Below, in pieces: positions 82 through 60,982 of a stretch of DNA of 64,000 nt (its first letter is position 1; each line of letters begins with the position of its first letter). The position numbers and the translations under genes were made by a program. The DNA lies in assembly GCA_012735215.1 (NCBI GenBank), contig JAAYHX010000016.1, positions 62,001 to 126,000 of the forward strand. Reading direction: 5' to 3'. The notes below the pieces were generated by a model that was given only the letters and a program-made list of their open reading frames with translations, was not told the origin of the DNA and did not search any database. Source of the DNA: Tissierellia bacterium. Lineage in GTDB: Bacteria; Bacillota; Clostridia; Tissierellales; Tepidimicrobiaceae.

Positions 82-1371
82 ATGGGAGATTATAGAGAAT
101 TGTGGAGCAATCTGGGAATGGACTTAGATAAGCACGACATACTATGTGAGGCTTTACCTGAAGCCTTTGGCTCAATATATTTAACACAGGAGAATAGACC
201 TGAAAACATGAATTATTTTAACTATGCTCTTGCAGAAGTTCACGGAGCTAGAATTGAAGAGATCAATGAAGCAAAGGCTAATGGAAAGAAAGTTGTAGGA
301 ACCTTCTGCGTGTTCGTTCCAGACGAGGTTATACTTGCTGCAGGTGCAGTTGGGGTTGGACTTTGCTCAGGAAGTCAATTCTGGATTGAGGATGGAGAAA
401 AAGTTTTACCAAGAAACTTATGTCCATTGATTAAGGCCTTTGTAGGAGCTAAGGTAAGCCGTACATGCCCATATTTCCAATCCAGTGACATGATAGTTGG
501 AGAAACAACTTGCGATGGTAAGAAAAAAGCCTATGAGATAGTTGAAGAATATATGCCAGTTCATGTAATGGAGCTTCCTCAAATGAAGAGGGAGAAAAAC
601 TATGAGCAGTGGAAGGACGAGATAAAGCTATTCATCAGTAGAATGGAAGAATTGACTGGCAACAAGGTAACAGTTGAAAATTTAAAGAAGGCTATCGACT
701 TAGTAAATAGAAAGAGAAGAGCACTAAAGAGATTATACGATTTGAGAAAAAATACTCCATCTCCAATTAGCGGATTAGATGCTCTATTAGTAACCCAAGT
801 TGCTTTCTTAGATGATATTGAAAGGTTTATTGAGAATACCAATGCTCTTTGCGATGAGTTAGAGGAAAGAGTAAAGAACTTAGAACCAACTGGAAAGAAG
901 AGAATAATGATAACAGGAACTCCAATGGCAGTTCCAAACTGGAAGCTTCATTCAATAGTAGAGGGGTTAGATGCGGAAATAGTAGTAGAAGAAACATGTA
1001 CAGGAACTAGATACTTTGAAGGAGAAGTTTCAACTGAAGGAGATACAATTGATGATCTATTAAAGAATTTGGCAGATAGATATATGAATATAAACTGTGC
1101 ATGCTTCACACCAAATAATGATAGAACAGAAGACATCATTAAGTATGCTGAAGAATACAATGTAGATGGAGTAATTTACTATAATCTATCCTTCTGCCAT
1201 ACCTATGCAATAGAATACAAGAAGGTTGAAAATGCCTTAGCAGAAAAGAGCATACCACTATTAAACATTGAAACTGACTATTCAGAAGAGGATTCAGGAC
1301 AAATCAAGACAAGAGTTGAGGCATTCTTGGAGATGATTGGTAGTGGAGAAAAACTACATACTGTTTCCTAA
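82..1371 (+). CDS. Double-cubane cluster protein, 2-hydroxyacyl-CoA dehydratase D-like (copy 1)
   Basis: This is a 429-residue member of the 2-hydroxyglutaryl-CoA dehydratase D-component/BcrC-BadD family (E. coli YjiM type). Cysteines sit in the conserved segments GTFC (about 76), LCSG (95), NLCPLIK (114), CPYF (129) and VGETTCDGKKK (144). The last block is typical of double-cubane [8Fe-9S] cluster proteins, which make ATP-driven low-potential reductions of small substrates. The ATG at 82 is chosen because AAGGAGG at 67-73 gives 8-base spacing; a TTG six bases upstream is too close. It heads an operon with DUF3343, an activator ATPase and a paralogue. A role as one subunit of a true acyl-CoA dehydratase cannot be excluded; the substrate is unknown. 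Confidence 0.85.
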   Translation: MGDYRELWSNLGMDLDKHDILCEALPEAFGSIYLTQENRPENMNYFNYALAEVHGARIEEINEAKANGKKVVGTFCVFVPDEVILAAGAVGVGLCSGSQFWIEDGEKVLPRNLCPLIKAFVGAKVSRTCPYFQSSDMIVGETTCDGKKKAYEIVEEYMPVHVMELPQMKREKNYEQWKDEIKLFISRMEELTGNKVTVENLKKAIDLVNRKRRALKRLYDLRKNTPSPISGLDALLVTQVAFLDDIERFIENTNALCDELEERVKNLEPTGKKRIMITGTPMAVPNWKLHSIVEGLDAEIVVEETCTGTRYFEGEVSTEGDTIDDLLKNLADRYMNINCACFTPNNDRTEDIIKYAEEYNVDGVIYYNLSFCHTYAIEYKKVENALAEKSIPLLNIETDYSEEDSGQIKTRVEAFLEMIGSGEKLHTVS

Positions 1372-1564
1372 TCACAGCCAAGGATTAAAATTAGAGAAAC
1401 TGTTAAAGGCTAACAATATTAAATATGTAATATCTCCAACGCCAAGAAAGCTTTCAACCTGTTGTGGAATATCAATTATGTATAATAAAGAAGATGAGGA
1501 CAGGATAAAAAACATTATCAACACCTATTCAATAGAAGTATTGGGACTATATACATTAGAGTAA
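1337..1564 (+). CDS. DUF3343 (putative Se/S carrier-like) small protein
   Basis: A 75-residue protein overlapping the end of the preceding gene by 35 bases, which implies translational coupling. The likely start is TTG 1337 (GGAG at 1329-1332), with GTG 1343 as alternative. It has the features of the DUF3343 family: an N-terminal YILFPNHSQGLKLEKLL segment, a Cys-Cys pair in STCCGISI and a final half-ferredoxin-like fold. The family has been proposed to carry selenium or sulfur, but that is not proven. Its place between a double-cubane protein and its activator suggests a role in maturing or supplying the reductase, which is inference. Confidence 0.7.
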   Translation: MVVEKNYILFPNHSQGLKLEKLLKANNIKYVISPTPRKLSTCCGISIMYNKEDEDRIKNIINTYSIEVLGLYTLE

Positions 1565-1579
1565 GATTGGAGGAATAAA

Positions 1580-2338
1580 ATGTATTATGTAGGAATAGAT
1601 ATAGGCTCTACTGCTTCAAAGGTATCGGTCTTTGATGATCAGGAACTCATATTTAATATTGTTATGCCTACTGGGTGGAACAGTGTGGATACTTCTAATA
1701 AGATTAAGGAAGAGCTGGATAAAAATAAGATAGATTTAGAAAATGCAAAAGTGGTTGCTACCGGCTATGGACGAATATCTGTACCATATGCGGACAAGAC
1801 CATAACAGAGATTACCTGCCATGGGAAAGGAGCCTACTATCTAGCTGGCAAGGATATGATGACAGTTGTAGATATAGGTGGTCAGGATACTAAGATAATA
1901 AATATAGAAAATGGCCGAGTAACCAACTTTTTGATGAATGACAAATGTGCAGCGGGTACTGGTAGATTTCTTGAACTGATGGCAAATACTCTTGGGGTCA
2001 CTTTGGAGGAAATGAGTTACATGGCTTTAAAGGGGGAAGACCTTAATATAACTAGCATGTGTACTGTTTTTGCAGAATCGGAGGTTATCAGCCTTATTGG
2101 CAGCGGAGCCAAAAGGGAGGATATTGCAAGAGGGGTAATAAATTCAATAATTGGTCGAATCACAACCTTGCTTAATAAACAAGGAATAAGAGGAGATGTT
2201 TACTTAACCGGTGGCCTTTGTGAGTTGGCTTCCTTTATACAGCTTTTATCAGAAAAAATAGATAGAAAAGTAAATACCAGTTCCCTTGCCAGGTATGCTG
2301 GCTCTATAGGTGGGGCTTTGTTAGCAAAAAATATTTAG
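1580..2338 (+). CDS. 2-hydroxyacyl-CoA dehydratase activator ATPase (HgdC/YjiL-like)
   Basis: A 252-residue ASKHA-fold ATPase of the BadF/BadG/BcrA/BcrD family. The N-terminal phosphate-binding motif is GIDIGSTASKVSVF, and a second ATPase motif TVVDIGGQDTK lies near residue 95. Two conserved cysteines, in DKCAAGTGRF and SMCTVFAESE, are the expected ligands of the [4Fe-4S] cluster that bridges the homodimer. These activators use ATP hydrolysis to push electrons into the D-component or double-cubane partner. GGAGG precedes the ATG. It sits between two double-cubane paralogues and may serve both. Confidence 0.87.
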   Translation: MYYVGIDIGSTASKVSVFDDQELIFNIVMPTGWNSVDTSNKIKEELDKNKIDLENAKVVATGYGRISVPYADKTITEITCHGKGAYYLAGKDMMTVVDIGGQDTKIINIENGRVTNFLMNDKCAAGTGRFLELMANTLGVTLEEMSYMALKGEDLNITSMCTVFAESEVISLIGSGAKREDIARGVINSIIGRITTLLNKQGIRGDVYLTGGLCELASFIQLLSEKIDRKVNTSSLARYAGSIGGALLAKNI

Positions 2339-2351
2339 AAAAATGAGCTTA

Positions 2352-2380
2352 GGATGGCTATATGCCATCCCTTAGTTTTT
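2352..2380 (+). terminator. Intra-operon hairpin with U tract (attenuator-like)
   Basis: GGATGGC (2352-2358) pairs with GCCATCC (2364-2370) around a five-base loop, followed after a short gap by five T (2376-2380). It lies between the activator stop and the ribosome binding site of the second double-cubane gene, so it probably lowers read-through into that gene. Confidence 0.5.
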
Positions 2381-2395
2381 CAAAGGAGTGAAAAT

Positions 2396-3544
2396 ATGAT
2401 TGAGTTACCAAAGAGATTTGATGAATATGAAGAATCTAGGAGAGAAGGTTTTATAAAGATTAAAGAATTGAAAGATAAGGGAGTAAATATTGTAGGAACT
2501 TTTTGCACCTATGCTCCAACTGAACTCATATATGCAGCTGGTGCAGTTCCGGTAAGCTTGTGCAGTGGCAATCAGGATATTATTGCACAAGCAGAAGTAG
2601 ACCTGCCTGAAAATCTTTGCCCCTTAATCAAATCTAGCTATGGAAATGCTGTAACTGAGAGGTGCCCATTTTTCTATTTTTCTGACCTAGTGGTGGGGGA
2701 GACTACCTGTGATGGAAAGAAAAAGATGTATGAGCTTTTGAAGAATATTAAAGATGTTCATGTAATGAATCTTCCCCAAAGCCAGTTGAATGAACATGAT
2801 TTTGAGTATTGGAAAGCAGAATTAATCAAACTAAGAAGGGTTCTTGAGGAAAAGTTTAATGTAGAGATAACAGATGAAAAACTCAGAGAGTCCATAAAAA
2901 CAAGAAATAGGGAAAGAAAGATATTACTTGAGTTTTACGAACTAGGCAAATTAAATCCAGCTCCAATAAGCGGTTTTGATCTTAATTCAGCTGCAGAAGC
3001 AGTGGCATTTAGATTTGACAGGGAAAAGGCTTATGAAGAAATAGCTATGAGAACCTTGGAGTTAAAGGAAAAGTATGAGAGAGAACTAAAGGGGAAAAAA
3101 ACCAATAGACCTAGAATACTGATAACTGGATGTCCAACAGTTGGAGTAAGAAAAAAGGTAATAGATCAAATAGAGGAGTTAGGTGCTGATGTAGTTGGAT
3201 TTGAAAGCTGCAGCGGACCTAAGGAAATGATGGAGCTAGTAGATGAAACTATGGAACCAATAGATGCCATAGCAAAGAAATACTTAAACATACACTGTTC
3301 TGTCATGACTCCAAATCCAAACCGCTTTAAGGTGTTGGATGAAATGATAGACGATTACCAAGTAGATGGAGTTGTAGAAGTTATACTTCAAGCCTGTCAT
3401 ACTTTCAATATAGAATCCTACAATGTAAAAAATTATGTTGCCAATGTAAAGAATAAACCTTATATTTCCATAGAAACAGATTACTCAGAATTTGATTTAG
3501 GACAATTGAAGACTAGACTTAATGCTTTTATAGAAATTCTTTAA
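2396..3544 (+). CDS. Double-cubane cluster protein, 2-hydroxyacyl-CoA dehydratase D-like (copy 2)
   Basis: A 382-residue paralogue of the gene at 82. The cysteine blocks are conserved: GTFC (37), LCSG (56), NLCPLIKSS (75), CPFF (90), VGETTCDGKKK (105), and near the end a CHTFNIE motif. The ATG at 2396 is chosen because AAAGGAG lies just upstream; an in-frame ATG at 2354 falls inside the terminator-like hairpin and gives a non-conserved N-terminus. Compared with copy 1 it lacks about 40 N-terminal residues. Either the two copies form a heterodimer, or each is a homodimer with a different substrate; the sequence alone does not decide. Confidence 0.85.
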   Translation: MIELPKRFDEYEESRREGFIKIKELKDKGVNIVGTFCTYAPTELIYAAGAVPVSLCSGNQDIIAQAEVDLPENLCPLIKSSYGNAVTERCPFFYFSDLVVGETTCDGKKKMYELLKNIKDVHVMNLPQSQLNEHDFEYWKAELIKLRRVLEEKFNVEITDEKLRESIKTRNRERKILLEFYELGKLNPAPISGFDLNSAAEAVAFRFDREKAYEEIAMRTLELKEKYERELKGKKTNRPRILITGCPTVGVRKKVIDQIEELGADVVGFESCSGPKEMMELVDETMEPIDAIAKKYLNIHCSVMTPNPNRFKVLDEMIDDYQVDGVVEVILQACHTFNIESYNVKNYVANVKNKPYISIETDYSEFDLGQLKTRLNAFIEIL

Positions 3545-3553
3545 AACAAAAAC

Positions 3554-3585
3554 AAACCAGGCCTATAACTAGGACCTGGTTAATT
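3554..3585 (+). terminator. Terminator between convergent genes
   Basis: AACCAGG pairs with CCTGGTT around a 13-base loop with a further CCT/AGG pairing inside. It lies between the converging double-cubane operon and the HAD gene and could end transcription in both directions. Confidence 0.5.
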
Positions 3586-3601
3586 GTTTATTGGATGTTT
3601 T

Positions 3602-4243
3602 TTATAAATTTTTTATTATCTCTAAGTTTAGCTGGTTAAAATTGCTTATAACTAAGTCTGCAAGGGATAAATCCTGGTTTCCTGAACCCATATTCTTTAG
3701 GCCTATACATTTCATCCCAGCTGCCTTTGCTGCTTTTACACCATTTTCAGCATCTTCTACTACTAGACATTCTTCAGGCTTAACGCCTATCTTTTTAGCC
3801 ACAGTCAAGAAGATTTCTGGATCTGGCTTTCCCTTCTTTACCTCTTCACCACTTATGATGTATTTTATATATTTACCTAATCCAAACCTTTTTACAATTG
3901 CATCCACTATCTTCCTGTTATTGGAGGAAGCTATTGCCATTGGGTACCCTTGGTTATATAAGGTCAACATAAAGTCCATAAAGTTTTCAGTTAGCTGAAC
4001 CTCATCAATTCTTTTTAGAAATCTTTCTTTTTTCATATGGATAATTTCTTCAACAGAAGGCTTTAAGTTGAACTGTTCTTTAAGCTTCATCCAGATGCTG
4101 TAGTCTGTAGTTCCCACAAAAGCTTCATGGGATTTTCTATCAAACTTTCCTCCCAATTCTTCTAGCAATTGGCCTTCTATTTCAAAATGCAATGGCTCAC
4201 TGTTTATTATTACTCCATCCATATCGAATATTACAACCTTCAA
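3602..4243 (-). CDS. HAD-superfamily hydrolase, beta-phosphoglucomutase-like
   Basis: A 213-residue HAD subfamily IA protein. Motif I is DMDGV (catalytic Asp7 and Asp9), motif II the Ser-Ser-Asn of IASSNNRK, motif III the Lys of KKGKPDPEIF, and motif IV VVEDAENGVKAAKAAG. The helical cap between motif I and motif II includes a TTDYSIW stretch. The substrate could be beta-glucose-1-phosphate, another sugar phosphate or phosphoglycolate. It stands alone on the minus strand with its own promoter at 4293-4321. Confidence 0.82.
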   Translation of the reverse strand: MKVVIFDMDGVIINSEPLHFEIEGQLLEELGGKFDRKSHEAFVGTTDYSIWMKLKEQFNLKPSVEEIIHMKKERFLKRIDEVQLTENFMDFMLTLYNQGYPMAIASSNNRKIVDAIVKRFGLGKYIKYIISGEEVKKGKPDPEIFLTVAKKIGVKPEECLVVEDAENGVKAAKAAGMKCIGLKNMGSGNQDLSLADLVISNFNQLNLEIIKNL

Positions 4244-4292
4244 AGTATCTCTCCTTTGCCCACTATATAGTTAATATAGAGTTTCAAATTTT

Positions 4293-4321
4293 AATATATA
4301 TTAATAATAGCATATAGTCAA
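4293..4321 (-). promoter_or_regulatory. Sigma-A-type promoter for the HAD hydrolase
   Basis: Read on the minus strand, TTGACT (4316-4321) and TATATT (4293-4298) are separated by 17 bases, about 50 bases upstream of the start codon. Confidence 0.55.
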
Positions 4322-4330
4322 ATACCACAT

Positions 4331-4358
4331 AAAAAGCATCCAGCAGAATGCTAGATGC
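4331..4358 (-). terminator. Rho-independent terminator of the carbinolamine dehydratase gene
   Basis: On the minus strand GCATC and GATGC form a stem with an inner TAGCA/TGCTG pairing, followed by TTTTTA. It begins inside the last codons of the dehydratase gene. Confidence 0.65.
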
Positions 4359-4689
4359 CTCTATATATTTCATCAATTTTTGCTGCTAGTATAAAGTCAT
4401 TTTCGTGAAGGCCTCCTATCTTGTGGGTCCATAGTTCTATGACTACCCTTCCCCAAGAAAGATGAATATCTGGATGATGGCCTTCTTCTTCAGCTAAATC
4501 TCCTACCTTGTTAGTAAAGTCTAAAGCTTCTTTAAAATCCTTAAACTTGTAAGATTTCTTCAGCTTCTTATTGTCTATGACTTCCCAGCCTTCCTTTAAA
4601 GAGGGCATAAGCTCCATTATTTCATCTTCATTTAGCGTTGGAGCGCCAATACTACAGGGAATACACTTCTTAGAAGTTAAATCTATCAT
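4351..4689 (-). CDS. phhB: 4a-hydroxytetrahydrobiopterin (pterin-4a-carbinolamine) dehydratase
   Basis: A 112-residue protein, the usual size for this single-domain family. The signature EEGHHPDIHLSWGRV holds the active-site histidines (71, 72 and 76) and is followed by the conserved IELWTHKIGGLHENDF segment. The classic role is recycling of pterin cofactor for aromatic amino acid hydroxylases. No hydroxylase is encoded nearby and an anaerobe is unlikely to have one, so the role may be in molybdopterin or folate metabolism or another dehydration, as suggested for orphan homologues. Residues CIPC near the N-terminus are also common in bacterial homologues. Confidence 0.9.
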   Translation of the reverse strand: MIDLTSKKCIPCSIGAPTLNEDEIMELMPSLKEGWEVIDNKKLKKSYKFKDFKEALDFTNKVGDLAEEEGHHPDIHLSWGRVVIELWTHKIGGLHENDFILAAKIDEIYRGI

Positions 4690-4903
4690 TATTTCACCAC
4701 CCTATATAAAATGGTATAAAATATATACCCATTAATATAATTATTACAATTAAAAAAGGTAATTAATAGTTTATGTAGAAATACTAATTAATATTAAATA
4801 AGGCATTTATAGTATACATACTCTATTACAAAGTTCTATTAATGGGATTGTCCTTGCATTATAGCTATTTAGCAAGCAGGGAGATACAAAGGAGGGAAAA
4901 GCT

Positions 4904-5395
4904 ATGGTTAATAATAAAGTTCCTAATATTGAGTTTAGGCCTATAACTGGACAAGACATGATTGAAGAAATAAAGGAGCTTTTCTTAGAATATGCCCAAT
5001 CATTAAAAATAGATCTCTCCTTTCAAAATTTTGAGGAAGAATTTAAATCATTACCAGGTAAATACGGACCACCTGATGGACTCTTAGTTCTAGCCTTGGT
5101 AGATGGTAAAGCAGCAGGATGTGTAGCTTTTCATAAGATGTCTGATAAGATATGTGAAATGAAAAGGTTGTATGTTCGCAAGCAATACAGAGGATTAGGC
5201 ATTGGTAGAAGGCTTATTAATATTGTTGTTGAACAAGCCTTAAGGATGAATTATGAATACATCAGACTTGATACTCTACCAACAATGACAATAGCCCAAT
5301 CCTTATATATATCCTTTGGATTTTATGACATAGATCCATATGTGTATAATCCCATTGAAGGAGCAAGGTACATGGAATTAAAGCTAATAGATTAA
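4904..5395 (+). CDS. GNAT family N-acetyltransferase
   Basis: A 163-residue GNAT protein. The acetyl-CoA pyrophosphate-binding motif A is present as KQYRGLGIGRRLI, preceded by the beta-4 strand EMKRLYVR and followed by motif B around LYISFGFYDIDPY. AGGAGG lies at good spacing before the ATG. The acceptor substrate cannot be told. It is a single gene between the minus-strand dehydratase and the next plus-strand gene. Confidence 0.83.
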   Translation: MVNNKVPNIEFRPITGQDMIEEIKELFLEYAQSLKIDLSFQNFEEEFKSLPGKYGPPDGLLVLALVDGKAAGCVAFHKMSDKICEMKRLYVRKQYRGLGIGRRLINIVVEQALRMNYEYIRLDTLPTMTIAQSLYISFGFYDIDPYVYNPIEGARYMELKLID

Positions 5396-17946: not shown

Positions 17947-18007
17947 ATATGATCCATAATCATATATTTAGAAATTGATGTTTATAATAAAATCTGATAG
18001 TATATTA

Positions 18008-18037
18008 TTGAAATCAATAGAAAGGATGGATTATAGT
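18008..18037 (+). promoter_or_regulatory. Promoter for the ABC-F leader transcript
   Basis: TTGAAA (18008-18013) and TATAGT (18032-18037) are separated by 18 bases. This would start transcription near 18044, a few bases before the first arm of the leader structure. An overlapping TATAAT (18037-18042) is a possible alternative -10. Confidence 0.45.
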
Positions 18038-18116
18038 ATAATGAGCATATAACCCTTCATATTTAAAGAACATTTGAATTAGAGTTTGCTAGCCTATATA
18101 AATAGGCAGTTTTGTC

Positions 18117-18155
18117 ATGCAAAAATGTTCTGGAAAGGGTTATATTTATCATTAA
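18117..18155 (+). CDS. Candidate 12-codon leader peptide in the ABC-F attenuator
   Basis: ATG 18117 opens MQKCSGKGYIYH and a TAA. AGGCAG (18104-18109) is a weak binding site at 7-base spacing. The ORF covers the shared strand of P1 and P2, so a ribosome stalled on it would change which helix forms. A two-codon TTG-AAT-TAG at 18074 is another candidate. Neither is proven. Confidence 0.3.
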   Translation: MQKCSGKGYIYH

Positions 18156-18199
18156 TGAATATTCATCTGTGTTCATGTTTATTGTTGTGGGATAAATAT

Positions 18200-18227
18200 G
18201 CCTTTCCAGTAAAGGAGGGCTTTTTTT
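18200..18227 (+). terminator. Attenuator terminator directly abutting the ABC-F start codon
   Basis: Stem GCCTTTC/GGAGGGC (two G-U pairs) with loop CAGTAAA is followed by seven T that run straight into the ATG at 18228. The 3' arm includes the ribosome binding site AAAGGAGGG, so the hairpin would block translation as well as transcription. Confidence 0.75.
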
Positions 18228-19877
18228 ATGTTGGTATTAGAGATAATTGATGTAGAAAAATACTTTGGAGCAAGGAAAGTATTGGAGATAAAGGACCTGA
18301 AAGTATATAAAGAAGATAAAATAGGAGTAGTAGGATTAAATGGTAGTGGTAAAACCACACTGCTTAATTTAATAAGTGGCCATATTAAACCCGATAAAGG
18401 GTACATTAGAGGCTATGGTAAGATATCCTATATAAGGCAGTTAGAAGATGAGCATGACAACACCTTAGAAGGAAAGTATGAGTCTCAATTTGGCTTAAAG
18501 GACAAAGCAGTGGAATACATGAGTGGTGGAGAGCAGACAAGGCTTAAAATAGCCAAGGCACTTAGTCAGAACCACCTTTTACTTCTAGCAGATGAGCCTA
18601 CCTCAAATTTGGATTTTGAAGGAATAGACATGCTTGTTGATAATCTAATACAATATGATGGTGCATTAATGGTTGTATCCCATGATAGGGACTTGTTGGA
18701 TAAGGTATGTAATAAGATACTTGAAATTGAAGAGGGACAAATTAGAATTTATGATGGGAACTATTCCCAATATAGAGAACAGAAAGAACTGGAGAAGAAG
18801 ACCAAGGAAGCAGAATATGAAAAGTATATAAGAGAAAAGAAAAGGTTGAAAAGGGCTATTGTAGAAACAAAGAATAAATCGAGAAGCATCAAAAAAACTC
18901 CAACGAGAATGGGCAATTCAGAGGCAAGACTGCATAAAATGGGTAGTCAGGCTGCAAGGAGAAGCTTAGAAAATAAAACAAAGGCACTAGAAACCAGACT
19001 GAAGAAGCTGGAGGTAAAGGACAAGGTTAAAGAAATTGACATAATCAAAGTGGATATATTAGGAGATGATATTTACTCAAAAGTAATTATAGAAGGAAAA
19101 GACGTGAATAAATCCTATGGAGAAAGGACTCTGTTTAAGGATGGAGAGTTTCAAATATACAATGGAACTAAAGTTGCCCTGATTGGGAAAAATGGCAGTG
19201 GTAAAACCACGCTGCTAAGGATGATAATGAACAGGGAAAAGGGGATAAATATTTCTCAGAAAGCTAAAATAGGATACTTCAGTCAGGATTTAAGCTTATT
19301 AGATAAAGATAAGACCATAATTGAAAATGTAATTGATACAAGTAGGCATGATGAAACCACTGTAAGGACTATACTGGCAAGATTCTTATTCAAAAGAAAT
19401 GATGTATATAAAAAGGTTAGTGTTTTAAGTGGAGGAGAAAGGGTTAAAGCTTCCTTAGTAAAAATTCTAATGTCCGATTTTAATATATTGATATTGGATG
19501 AACCTACAAACTACTTAGATATTTACTCCATAGAAGCCCTTGAAGAGGCACTAGTATCCTATGAAGGAACAATACTGTTTGTATCTCATGATAGAAGATT
19601 CATAGAAAAGGTAGCAGATAGAATAATGTATATAGATAACAATAAGATAAATATCTTCAATGGTACTTTGAAAGAATATGAAATGAGAAAAGCAAGGATT
19701 TTCAAGGAGAATGAAAAAGAAATCCAAGAAAGAAAAGCTATACTTGAATATAGGATGTCTGAAATACTTGGTAAGCTATCTATGCCTTCAAAAGATGATA
19801 ATCTTGAAGCTTTGGATAGGGAATACAATGAAATCCTTAAGGAACTGAAATCTATAAAAAACATCAACCTCCATTAA
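18228..19877 (+). CDS. ABC-F family ATPase, probable ribosomal protection / antibiotic resistance type
   Basis: A 549-residue soluble protein with two ABC domains and no membrane segments. Walker A motifs are GLNGSGKTT (about 38-46) and GKNGSGKTT, signatures MSGGEQTR and LSGGERVK, and Walker B motifs end in ADEPTSNLD and LDEPTNYLD. The basic linker between the domains (about residues 185-265, rich in Lys/Arg) is the P-site tRNA interaction motif region that reaches into the ribosome. The C-terminus is a short helical extension. The attenuator upstream favours the antibiotic-resistance group (Vga/Lsa/VmlR-like) over housekeeping EttA/Uup types; drug spectrum cannot be told. Confidence 0.85.
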   Translation: MLVLEIIDVEKYFGARKVLEIKDLKVYKEDKIGVVGLNGSGKTTLLNLISGHIKPDKGYIRGYGKISYIRQLEDEHDNTLEGKYESQFGLKDKAVEYMSGGEQTRLKIAKALSQNHLLLLADEPTSNLDFEGIDMLVDNLIQYDGALMVVSHDRDLLDKVCNKILEIEEGQIRIYDGNYSQYREQKELEKKTKEAEYEKYIREKKRLKRAIVETKNKSRSIKKTPTRMGNSEARLHKMGSQAARRSLENKTKALETRLKKLEVKDKVKEIDIIKVDILGDDIYSKVIIEGKDVNKSYGERTLFKDGEFQIYNGTKVALIGKNGSGKTTLLRMIMNREKGINISQKAKIGYFSQDLSLLDKDKTIIENVIDTSRHDETTVRTILARFLFKRNDVYKKVSVLSGGERVKASLVKILMSDFNILILDEPTNYLDIYSIEALEEALVSYEGTILFVSHDRRFIEKVADRIMYIDNNKINIFNGTLKEYEMRKARIFKENEKEIQERKAILEYRMSEILGKLSMPSKDDNLEALDREYNEILKELKSIKNINLH

Positions 19878-32224: not shown

Positions 32225-32443
32225 GCCGTGTGATGAATGCGGGAGACACCAGTTTATACTGGGGCCGAAGGGGTAAGTCATAAACTAGCCATTTATGATG
32301 ATGTTCTCAGGCAAAAGGACCGTATTCTGACGGAACTCTGAAGAGCATATGCACCGAAGGAGCAATCTATGTCATATTACGACATAGAGAAACTCTCAGG
32401 TTAATAACAGAGTAAAAGGCCATCGGACCTTTTACTCTTTTTT
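32225..32443 (+). promoter_or_regulatory. Tandem glycine riboswitch with terminator expression platform
   Basis: Two aptamers of the gcvT-type glycine riboswitch. The first spans about 32229-32320 (CCGAAGGGGTAAG core and TTCTCAGGCAAAAGGAC closing strand), the second about 32325-32403 (GGAACTCTGAAGAGC, CACCGAAGGAGCAA, AACTCTCAGG). A leader segment GTGTGATGAATGCGG precedes aptamer 1, as in the known leader-linker kink-turn. ACTCTG (32335-32340) can pair with CAGAGT (32408-32413), which overlaps the 5' arm of the terminator. Glycine binding would therefore prevent termination, an ON switch suitable for a glycine-consuming operon. Confidence 0.93.
32409..32443 (+). terminator. Glycine-controlled terminator
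   Basis: AGAGTAAAAGG (32409-32419) pairs with CCTTTTACTCT (32428-32438), followed by five T. Its first arm competes with pairing to the second aptamer. Confidence 0.9.
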
Positions 32444-35866: not shown

Positions 35867-37177
35867 ATGGGGAAAATTAAAGTTGTTCATTATATAAATC
35901 AATTCTTTGCCGGAATAGGTGGAGAAGAAAAAGCTGATCATAAACCAGAAGTAAGAGAAGAAATTGTAGGACCAGGTATGGCTTTAAATGCTCAATTTAA
36001 GGGAGAAGCAGAAATTGTTGCCACAGTAATATGTGGAGATAGCTATTTCAATGAAAACATAGAAGAAGCAAAAGCAGAAATCTTGGATATGGTTAAGAAG
36101 TACAATCCAGATTTATTCATAGCAGGTCCTGCATTCAACGCTGGTAGATATGGAGTAGCCTGTGCTACTATAACCGATGCGGTACAAAATGAATTAGGAA
36201 TTCCAGCCTTAACAGCAATGTATGAGGAAAATCCTGGAGTAGATATGTTTAGAAAGAGCATATATATAGTGCCAACTAAGAATAGTGCTGCCGGCATGAG
36301 AGATGCAGTTAAAAAGATGGTTCCATTGGCTTTAAAATTAGGCAAGGGAGAAGAAATAGGTTCTCCTCAAGAGGAAAACTACTTCCCAAGAGGAATTAGA
36401 AAGAACTACTTTGCAGAAAAGAGAGGCTCTGAAAGAGCTGTTGAAATGCTTATCAAGAAGCTCAAAGGGGAAGAGTTTGAAACAGAATATCCAATGCCTG
36501 ACTTTGACAGGGTTAAACCTAATCCAGCAGTTAAGGATATAACTAAGGCTACAATAGCTATAGTTACTTCCGGTGGTATTGTACCAAAAGGAAATCCTGA
36601 CCACATAGAATCCTCATCTGCATCTAAATATGGAAAATATGATATAGATGGATTTAATGATTTAACTGAAGATGATCATCAAACAGCTCATGGTGGATAC
36701 GACCCAGTATATGCAAATAATGACCCAGATAGAGTTATACCAGTTGATATACTAAGAGAGATGGAGAAGGAAGGAAAGATTGGCAAACTTCACAGATATT
36801 TCTACACTACAGTAGGTAACGGTACTGCTGTTGCAAGTGCTAAGAAGTTTGCAGCGGAAATTGCTAAGGAATTAGTTGCTGATGGCGTGGATGCAGTTAT
36901 ACTAACTTCCACCTGAGGCACCTGTACACGTTGCGGTGCAACAATGGTAAAAGAAATTGAACGCGCAGGTTTGCCAGTAGTTCATATGTGCACTGTAGTA
37001 CCAATTTCATTGACAGTAGGTGCTAATAGGATAGTTCCAACCATCGCTATACCTCATCCTCTAGGAAATCCAAGCCTAGATCCAGAAGCTGAAAAAGACC
37101 TAAGAAGGAAGTTAGTAGAAAGAGCATTAAAGGCTCTAGAAACAGAAGTAGAAGATCAAACTGTATTTGAAGAGTAA
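35867..37177 (+). CDS. grdB: Glycine reductase complex selenoprotein B gamma (in-frame UGA read as Sec)
   Basis: A 436-residue selenoprotein. The frame runs through TGA 36914-36916 at residue 350, the same residue number as in known GrdB, within the motif LTSTUGTCTRCGATM (U is Sec). After it, PISLTVGANRIVPTIAIPHPLGNP is conserved to the end. Stem GCACC (36918-36922) with GGTGC (36935-36939) just after the UGA is a good bacterial SECIS candidate. It is the substrate-specific subunit for glycine; the sarcosine and betaine versions (GrdF, GrdH) are not seen here. GAGGGGGG precedes the ATG. Confidence 0.95.
36914..36916 (+). other. Selenocysteine UGA codon of grdB
   Basis: TGA between ILTST and GTCTRCG, with a five-base-pair stem-loop directly downstream and conserved GrdB sequence in the same frame on both sides. 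Confidence 0.95.
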
Positions 37178-60631: not shown

Positions 60632-60982
60632 GGGGGCGAACTTGGTTTCGACGGGGATATTGAAGCAGGAGTAGCGGGTCGTTGTCGCCAAGCAACGTAA
60701 AAAGTGGCACCTAAATATAATCGCAGACGAAAATTACGCTTTAGCTGCTTAATAAAGCAGCTCGTCCTACCTAAAGTGCCCACGCTTTAGGCCGGGGCGT
60801 CAACTAAGTGGGGAACTGTTCTTAGCTTTGCTTCGGGCTAGGAACGGAACTTATGAAGCTACCAAGGCTTAAATCCTGTCAGTAGGAGTTAAGCCGAGGG
60901 AATGTTAAAATACTGACTGCACTCGGAGAAGCTCCTGTGGATGTATTTTCGGACGTGGGTTCGACTCCCACCGCCTCCACCA
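60632..60982 (+). ncRNA. ssrA: Transfer-messenger RNA
   Basis: A one-piece tmRNA of about 351 bases. The 5' end GGGGGCG (60632-60638) pairs with CGCCTCC (60972-60978), followed by A and an encoded CCA (60980-60982). The T arm is GGTTCGACTCC. The tag is read from GCA 60723: Ala-Asp-Glu-Asn-Tyr-Ala-Leu-Ala-Ala, then two TAA stops (60750-60755). The resume codon sits after the usual upstream pseudoknot and several pseudoknot-forming repeats follow. Confidence 0.97.

Follow-up and report, generated by a model that had tools for sequence, protein, structure and literature searches.

The closest described counterparts of the leader analysed here are ribosome-mediated attenuators in front of ABC-F genes. 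In Bacillus subtilis, the experimental work in PMC9226507 shows that antibiotic stalling on an upstream open reading frame (uORF) encoding MIN blocks the anti-antiterminator of the vmlR leader, so that the antiterminator forms. The cplR leader of C. difficile, as described in PMC10201436, is 212 nt long, carries a uORF encoding MRI within a 5' hairpin and yields a transcript that ends at the start codon, with the Shine-Dalgarno sequence hidden in the terminator stem. Retapamulin and lincomycin act as inducers; in a cplR reporter, changing the uORF start abolishes activity and breaking the terminator stem makes it constant. In Streptomyces, drugs of the lincosamide, streptogramin A and pleuromutilin classes halt ribosomes at the start codons of the short ARE5 uORFs (PMC12421871).

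The sequence in question lies in the window, a 64,000-nucleotide stretch of contig JAAYHX010000016.1 from a Tissierellia bacterium (Tissierellales; Tepidimicrobiaceae). The leader is real, conserved and very probably functional, and we hold with high confidence that it belongs with the ribosome-mediated attenuators of cplR, vgaL and vmlR. By analogy with these systems, a ribosome jammed by an antibiotic on a three-codon uORF would most likely induce the downstream gene for resistance by ribosome protection.

Layout of the leader

The leader and its surroundings comprise the following elements, all on the forward strand:

17975-18003, +, probable promoter: TTGATG, a 17-base spacer with TG at 17995-17996, and TAGTAT; best-scoring site in the scan
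18020-18029, +, uORF Shine-Dalgarno sequence GAAAGGATGG, rather far (11 bases) from the uORF ATG
18041-18052, +, uORF ATG AGC ATA TAA (Met-Ser-Ile), putative drug sensor, kept in relatives
18049-18057, +, outer 5' strand of P1, the anti-antiterminator; 9 pairs with 18135-18143
18067-18075, +, inner 5' strand of P1; 9 pairs with 18123-18131
18092-18107, +, apical hairpin of P1 and, after it, a U-rich stretch; possible RNA polymerase pause signal
18123-18143, +, 3' strands of P1, partly common to the antiterminator
18130-18150, +, antiterminator 5' strand; 19 pairs with 18191-18209
18191-18209, +, antiterminator 3' strand, of which 18200-18206 doubles as the terminator 5' arm
18200-18227, +, predicted intrinsic terminator: hairpin 18200-18220 and seven T at 18221-18227
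18211-18219, +, Shine-Dalgarno sequence AAAGGAGGG of the ABC-F gene
18228-19877, +, ABC-F ribosomal protection-type gene, 549 aa (NCBIfam NF000355)

A first-pass annotation of the same DNA had proposed three competing pairings with common strands, and P1, antiterminator and terminator are indeed all present in the sequence. As it had stated, the antiterminator contains two perfect nine-base helices, CTGGAAAGG (18130-18138 with 18201-18209) and ATATTTATC (18142-18150 with 18191-18199). Its description of the terminator holds as well: the seven T reach the ATG at 18228, and the ribosome-binding site is buried, AAAGGAGGG occupying the end of the loop and, for the most part, the 3' arm of a stem that joins 18200-18206 to 18214-18220 by 7 pairs, 2 of them G-U. 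The outer 5' strand of P1 overlaps the last codon and the stop of the uORF, and the stop thereby also forms part of a P1 strand.

The leader folds far better than expected by chance, with an energy of -50.6 kcal/mol, whereas shuffled sequences average -33.3 kcal/mol and none of 200 does as well (z -4.36). Between 17600 and 18400 there are five terminator-like sites, versus a shuffle mean of 0.6; two of these are overlapping forms of the leader terminator, and a third corresponds to the P1 apical hairpin.

The proposed sequence of events is modelled on the homologous systems, from which translation of the uORF, stalling by drugs, read-through and the choice of drugs are all extrapolated. Transcription would start near 18010, and a ribosome would initiate at the tripeptide uORF. 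Without drug, this ribosome would finish the uORF and leave, upon which P1 would close, the antiterminator could not form and the terminator would halt RNA polymerase at the ABC-F ATG; in transcripts that read through, the same hairpin would hide the ABC-F ribosome-binding site. A drug acting at the peptidyl-transferase centre, by analogy a lincosamide, pleuromutilin or streptogramin A, would instead freeze the ribosome on the uORF. The stalled ribosome would cover the 5' strand of P1, allowing the antiterminator to pair, the gene to be transcribed and its ribosome-binding site to stay free.

The first-pass annotation had likewise envisaged an attenuator with three states, through which stress from ribosome-targeting antibiotics could be linked to expression of the ABC-F gene, and this part of its account stands. 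It omitted the tripeptide uORF overlapping P1, however, and without that sensor nothing explains how a drug would be sensed. The interval that it had assigned to the switch, 18051-18227, is too short, as the probable promoter, the uORF Shine-Dalgarno sequence and most of the uORF fall at 17975-18050. The difference matters for the predicted structure: 18051-18227 folds as the antiterminator, whereas 18010-18227 folds as P1 plus the terminator hairpin.

Promoter and transcription start

The site at 17975-18003 is the top one in a promoter scoring scan over the 100-base interval whose end lies 10 bases upstream of the uORF. Of the 15 near relatives, 14 have a top site that would set the start 29-36 bases upstream of the uORF, and the mean best score across 45 leaders is 11.44 versus 8.37 in mononucleotide shuffles (standard deviation of single scores 0.97). 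By homology, transcription probably starts around 18010, which predicts a leader of about 217 nt. A consensus scan gives a different best match, TTGAAA-18-TATAGT at 18008-18037 (10 of 12 positions), and does not list 17975-18003. An RNA started from this rival site would begin 3' of the uORF ATG and leave the ATG untranscribed. The upstream site is preferred because a site at a like distance recurs in relatives, as does the uORF, and the rival is disfavoured on these grounds, without the choice being proven; the scan of relatives ended 10 bases 5' of their uORFs, so that the rival site could not have turned up there.

The uORF across Tissierellales

Of 249 genomes of the order, 55 encode relatives of the ABC-F protein at E <= 1e-120, at 56 places, and 50 of the 56 leaders were examined (30 from loci and 20 others); the rest are one whose 5' end is missing on its contig (L016) and five weaker places (G165, G127, G047, G140 and G164). 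A scan of named genomes returned 8 loci, 4 of them close. The closest named matches are Tissierellia metagenome-assembled genomes and Schnuerera sp. xch1, a genus placed by the NCBI taxonomy in Tepidimicrobiaceae, Tissierellales.

A uORF of 2-3 codons that ends in TAA and follows a Shine-Dalgarno-like word is found in 45 of the 50 leaders versus 109 of 2000 dinucleotide shuffles (5.4%), under a rule that was chosen after the leaders had been inspected. Since this rule demands TAA, the universal TAA stop among the 45 is partly a product of selection. Where a leader offers several candidates, some of them ending in TAG or TGA, the one adjacent to P1 was picked by hand and the others were set aside. 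Two leaders are identical (L017 and L028), which leaves 44 distinct ones. The 45 uORFs encode 21 different peptides, 39 of the uORFs being tripeptides and 6 dipeptides. In the 15 near leaders, an AAAGG word precedes the uORF, and the peptides are MRI (6), MRM (6), MRK (1) and MSI (2, one of them the window). The MSI of the window thus falls outside the published cplR consensus MR[I/M].

Five leaders have no uORF by the rule and stand outside the tests on the 45. One of them (L058), judged by eye, is shorter, with a TGA-ended candidate uORF and no clear T run. The other four (L063-L066), from family f12 of the same order, belong to another leader type, in which a ten-codon frame with a strong Shine-Dalgarno sequence (MNNRYSLTNN in L063, MINTNSFLSN in L065) lies about 95 bases before the probable gene start; 3' of it come GAGAGG...CCTCTC, lacking a T run, and GGAGGAT close by. 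These leaders look like cases of translational attenuation only. In other orders of the class, inspection of 6 leaders by eye finds a short uORF in a like setting in four (L071, L072, L075 and L078); none was seen in L073 and L077.

The variety of peptides invites a further idea, namely that in this order the uORF is a sequence-blind detector of blocked early translation. Start, stop and a length of 2-3 codons would be selected and the peptide would drift, and the drugs to which MSI and other versions respond may differ from, or outnumber, those sensed by the published MRI or MIN. We regard this as speculative and rather unlikely.

Covariation and strand matching

The first-pass annotation had suggested covariation of the three helices among related leaders as a check, and the outcome differs from helix to helix. 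In an alignment of the 15 nearest leaders, RNAalifold, unaided, recovers the P1 outer helix and also the terminator. The evidence for P1 is clear: all five measures are reached by 0 of 500 shuffles, no slid register reaches any of them, and 8 of the 18 pairs have changed on both sides (5 of 9 in the outer helix, 3 of 9 in the inner one), with 92.6% of cells paired in the outer helix and 71.5% in the inner helix. In fixed columns, the antiterminator is equivocal. Three measures are reached by 7-9 of 500 shuffles and the other two by 280 and 418, and a register slid by one column scores equally high; insertions and deletions shift the register there. Changes in the terminator are mostly one-sided (12 of 500 shuffles on the covariation score), as expected if its 3' arm must remain a ribosome-binding site.

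A register-free swap test was used alongside, in which the duplex energy of a leader's own strands is compared with that of strands exchanged between leaders over 5000 permutations. In the 15 leaders, own strands match better for both P1 (-16.1 versus -12.3 kcal/mol; 0 of 5000) and the antiterminator (-20.0 versus -15.6 kcal/mol; 0 of 5000). The terminator gives 56 of 5000, and seven unproposed pairings range from 167 to 4932. In all 45 leaders and in 25 representatives, P1 and the antiterminator remain at 0 of 5000, and the terminator reaches 0 and 1, respectively.

Among the unproposed pairings, the P1 5' strand with the antiterminator 3' strand gives 3635 (45 leaders) and 3362 (25 representatives) of 5000, and the uORF Shine-Dalgarno region with the antiterminator 3' strand 5000 and 4998. 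The P1 5' strand with the terminator arm gives 102 of 5000 (45 leaders only), and the uORF Shine-Dalgarno region with the P1 3' region 0 and 3, versus 4174 in the 15 near leaders. As some unproposed pairings pass or nearly pass in the wider set, the swap test is subject there to relatedness effects or further pairings. The signal of the uORF Shine-Dalgarno region with the P1 3' region may stem from relatedness, or from P1 being extended outwards in other families. In four leaders from other families of the order (L027, L030, L032 and L037), a GCAAGGTAT-like uORF Shine-Dalgarno sequence is almost complementary to a AATAACTTGC-like stretch 3' of P1, with a matching change in L030 seen by eye. 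This pairing may lengthen P1 at its outer end and conceal the uORF ribosome-binding site.

Computed switching

The free fold of 18010-18227 contains all 18 pairs of P1 and the terminator hairpin with 5 of its 7 named pairs, at -57.9 kcal/mol. Forcing all 7 terminator pairs costs 0.2 kcal/mol more, and with the antiterminator enforced the energy is -52.1 kcal/mol. When 18026-18058 is held open, mimicking a ribosome on the uORF, the antiterminator forms with 16 of 16 counted pairs and the terminator is left with 0 of 7.

Across the 45 leaders, the free fold has at least 5 terminator pairs in every case, and in 7 it already has at least 8 pairs between the antiterminator regions. With the uORF held open, the antiterminator replaces the terminator in 21 of 45 (7 of the 15 near leaders and 14 of the 30 others), and in the non-switching leaders the terminator pairs stay. 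Controls in which 32 bases are held open at the apical hairpin, or in SL-2 before the antiterminator 3' strand, switch in 0 of 45 each. As such, equilibrium folding supports the switch model in about half of the leaders. Relatives share the apical hairpin with its trailing U-rich stretch, and a pyrimidine-G follows the hairpin at a spacing of 11 in 5 of 15 and of 6 in 7 of 15, counts in which a simple finder misplaced three hairpins. A hairpin-dependent pause of RNA polymerase at this point is a guess.

Specificity and the downstream gene

For the 5' domain, a covariance model was made from 14 near leaders (of the 15, L014 was left out, being nearly the same as L013). With E values up to 1, it hits two places in the window's own genome, namely the leader and, weakly, the reverse strand of the leader. 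Across the 249 genomes of the order, the model finds 17 places, all before an ABC-F frame, in a scan whose stricter filters and near-relative model miss distant leaders. Fifteen of these coincide with ABC-F leaders already found by the protein search, and the remaining two lie before an ABC-F frame that has lost a large internal part (L069) and before one cut by a contig end (L070). Control of genes other than ABC-F genes by the same RNA was considered and rejected, with no case among the 17 places or in the window's own genome. In L069 (553-1485, genome G017), the uORF start is lost and the ABC-F gene has 229 codons left after the deletion; switch and gene seem to be decaying together.

The encoded protein scores 530.8 bits against NCBIfam NF000355 (ribosomal protection-like ABC-F), above the cut-off of 380. 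Against NF000170 (Vga) it reaches 602.6 bits and against NF043038 (CplR) 595.2 bits, under the respective cut-offs of 725 and 780. Among solved structures, the chains that match the protein best in sequence are 7nhl and 7nhn, entered under the names lincosamide-streptogramin A resistance protein and Lmo0919. Elsewhere in the window, Rfam models at gathering score place a SECIS_4 element at 36917-36954 and a glycine riboswitch at 32230-32332, a combination that suggests selenoprotein-based glycine metabolism, and a tmRNA gene lies at 60632-60982 (RF00023, 215.4 bits).

Alternative readings

The same three helices could in principle be governed by a ligand- or protein-binding riboregulator and not by a uORF sensor. 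A three-state leader with an intrinsic terminator would suit such an element, as would the recurring apical hairpin and U-rich stretch, and transcription from 18008-18037 would leave out the uORF. However, the leader has no Rfam match at gathering score, and conservation is found in the helix strands, the uORF with its Shine-Dalgarno sequence and a short stretch after the apical hairpin, with no large conserved core; the presence of the uORF in 45 of the 50 leaders likewise speaks against this reading. We therefore consider this reading very improbable, and a riboswitch was rejected given the missing Rfam match and core.

The preference of the free fold for P1 plus terminator would also be compatible with a simpler arrangement, in which the terminator and the hidden ribosome-binding site merely keep expression low and nothing switches. 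A plain terminator, however, needs neither P1 nor the antiterminator, and the strands of both match better within than between leaders, which makes this arrangement highly unlikely. As for the sensor, the window does hold another frame, of 12 codons, opened by the ATG at 18117. It lies on the 3' side of P1 without a good Shine-Dalgarno sequence, and by eye 3 of the 15 near leaders (L001, L010 and L012) retain its ATG; that this or any other leader frame replaces the tripeptide uORF as sensor is hardly credible.

Comparison with known attenuators

The window leader has the parts by which these attenuators are recognized: a short uORF with a Shine-Dalgarno sequence at the 5' side of the first hairpin, an anti-antiterminator 5' strand at the uORF, an antiterminator exclusive with both P1 and the terminator, and an intrinsic terminator before the main frame. 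Among the literature matches listed, no title or beginning of an abstract names ABC-F leaders of Tissierellales, which is not proof of absence. The switch type itself already has experimental proof from other Gram-positive bacteria; what is new is only its occurrence in this Tissierellales genome and the survey with its varying peptide. Taken alone, the leader leaves the general picture of ABC-F gene control unaltered. It adds this part of Tissierellales to the range of the experimentally proven drug-sensing attenuators, and the 45 leaders with their 21 two- or three-residue peptides present a natural series for the question, raised in PMC10201436, whether the uORF sequence sets the drug range.

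As described in PMC9226507, vmlR shares with the window leader the uORF, the mutually exclusive anti-antiterminator, antiterminator and terminator, a leader of similar size (219 nt in vmlR) and a translational layer. It differs in that a separate hairpin, SL-4, partly hides the Shine-Dalgarno sequence, a role taken by the terminator in the window leader, and in that RNA polymerase pauses have been mapped in vmlR. The Listeria monocytogenes gene lmo0919 (vgaL), with its leader rli53, is likewise described, in a review (PMC11550727), as having a lincomycin-responsive attenuator and an antiterminator before an ABC-F gene. The are5sc and tiaA leaders of Streptomyces combine short uORFs with a terminator and an antiterminator, as here, and differ in ABC-F subfamily (ARE5) and phylum (PMC12421871).

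The closest likeness is to C. difficile cplR. The first-pass annotation had called the abutment of terminator and ATG unusual, a view that does not hold, given that the cplR transcript ends in the same position with its Shine-Dalgarno sequence concealed in the same way. By description, the two leaders agree almost part for part, from the tripeptide uORF in a 5' hairpin through the antiterminator and the terminator at the start codon to the Vga/CplR-like ABC-F gene; they differ in the uORF, which is MRI in cplR and MSI in the window, and in the protein, which in the window stays under the NCBIfam CplR cut-off (PMC10201436 for cplR).
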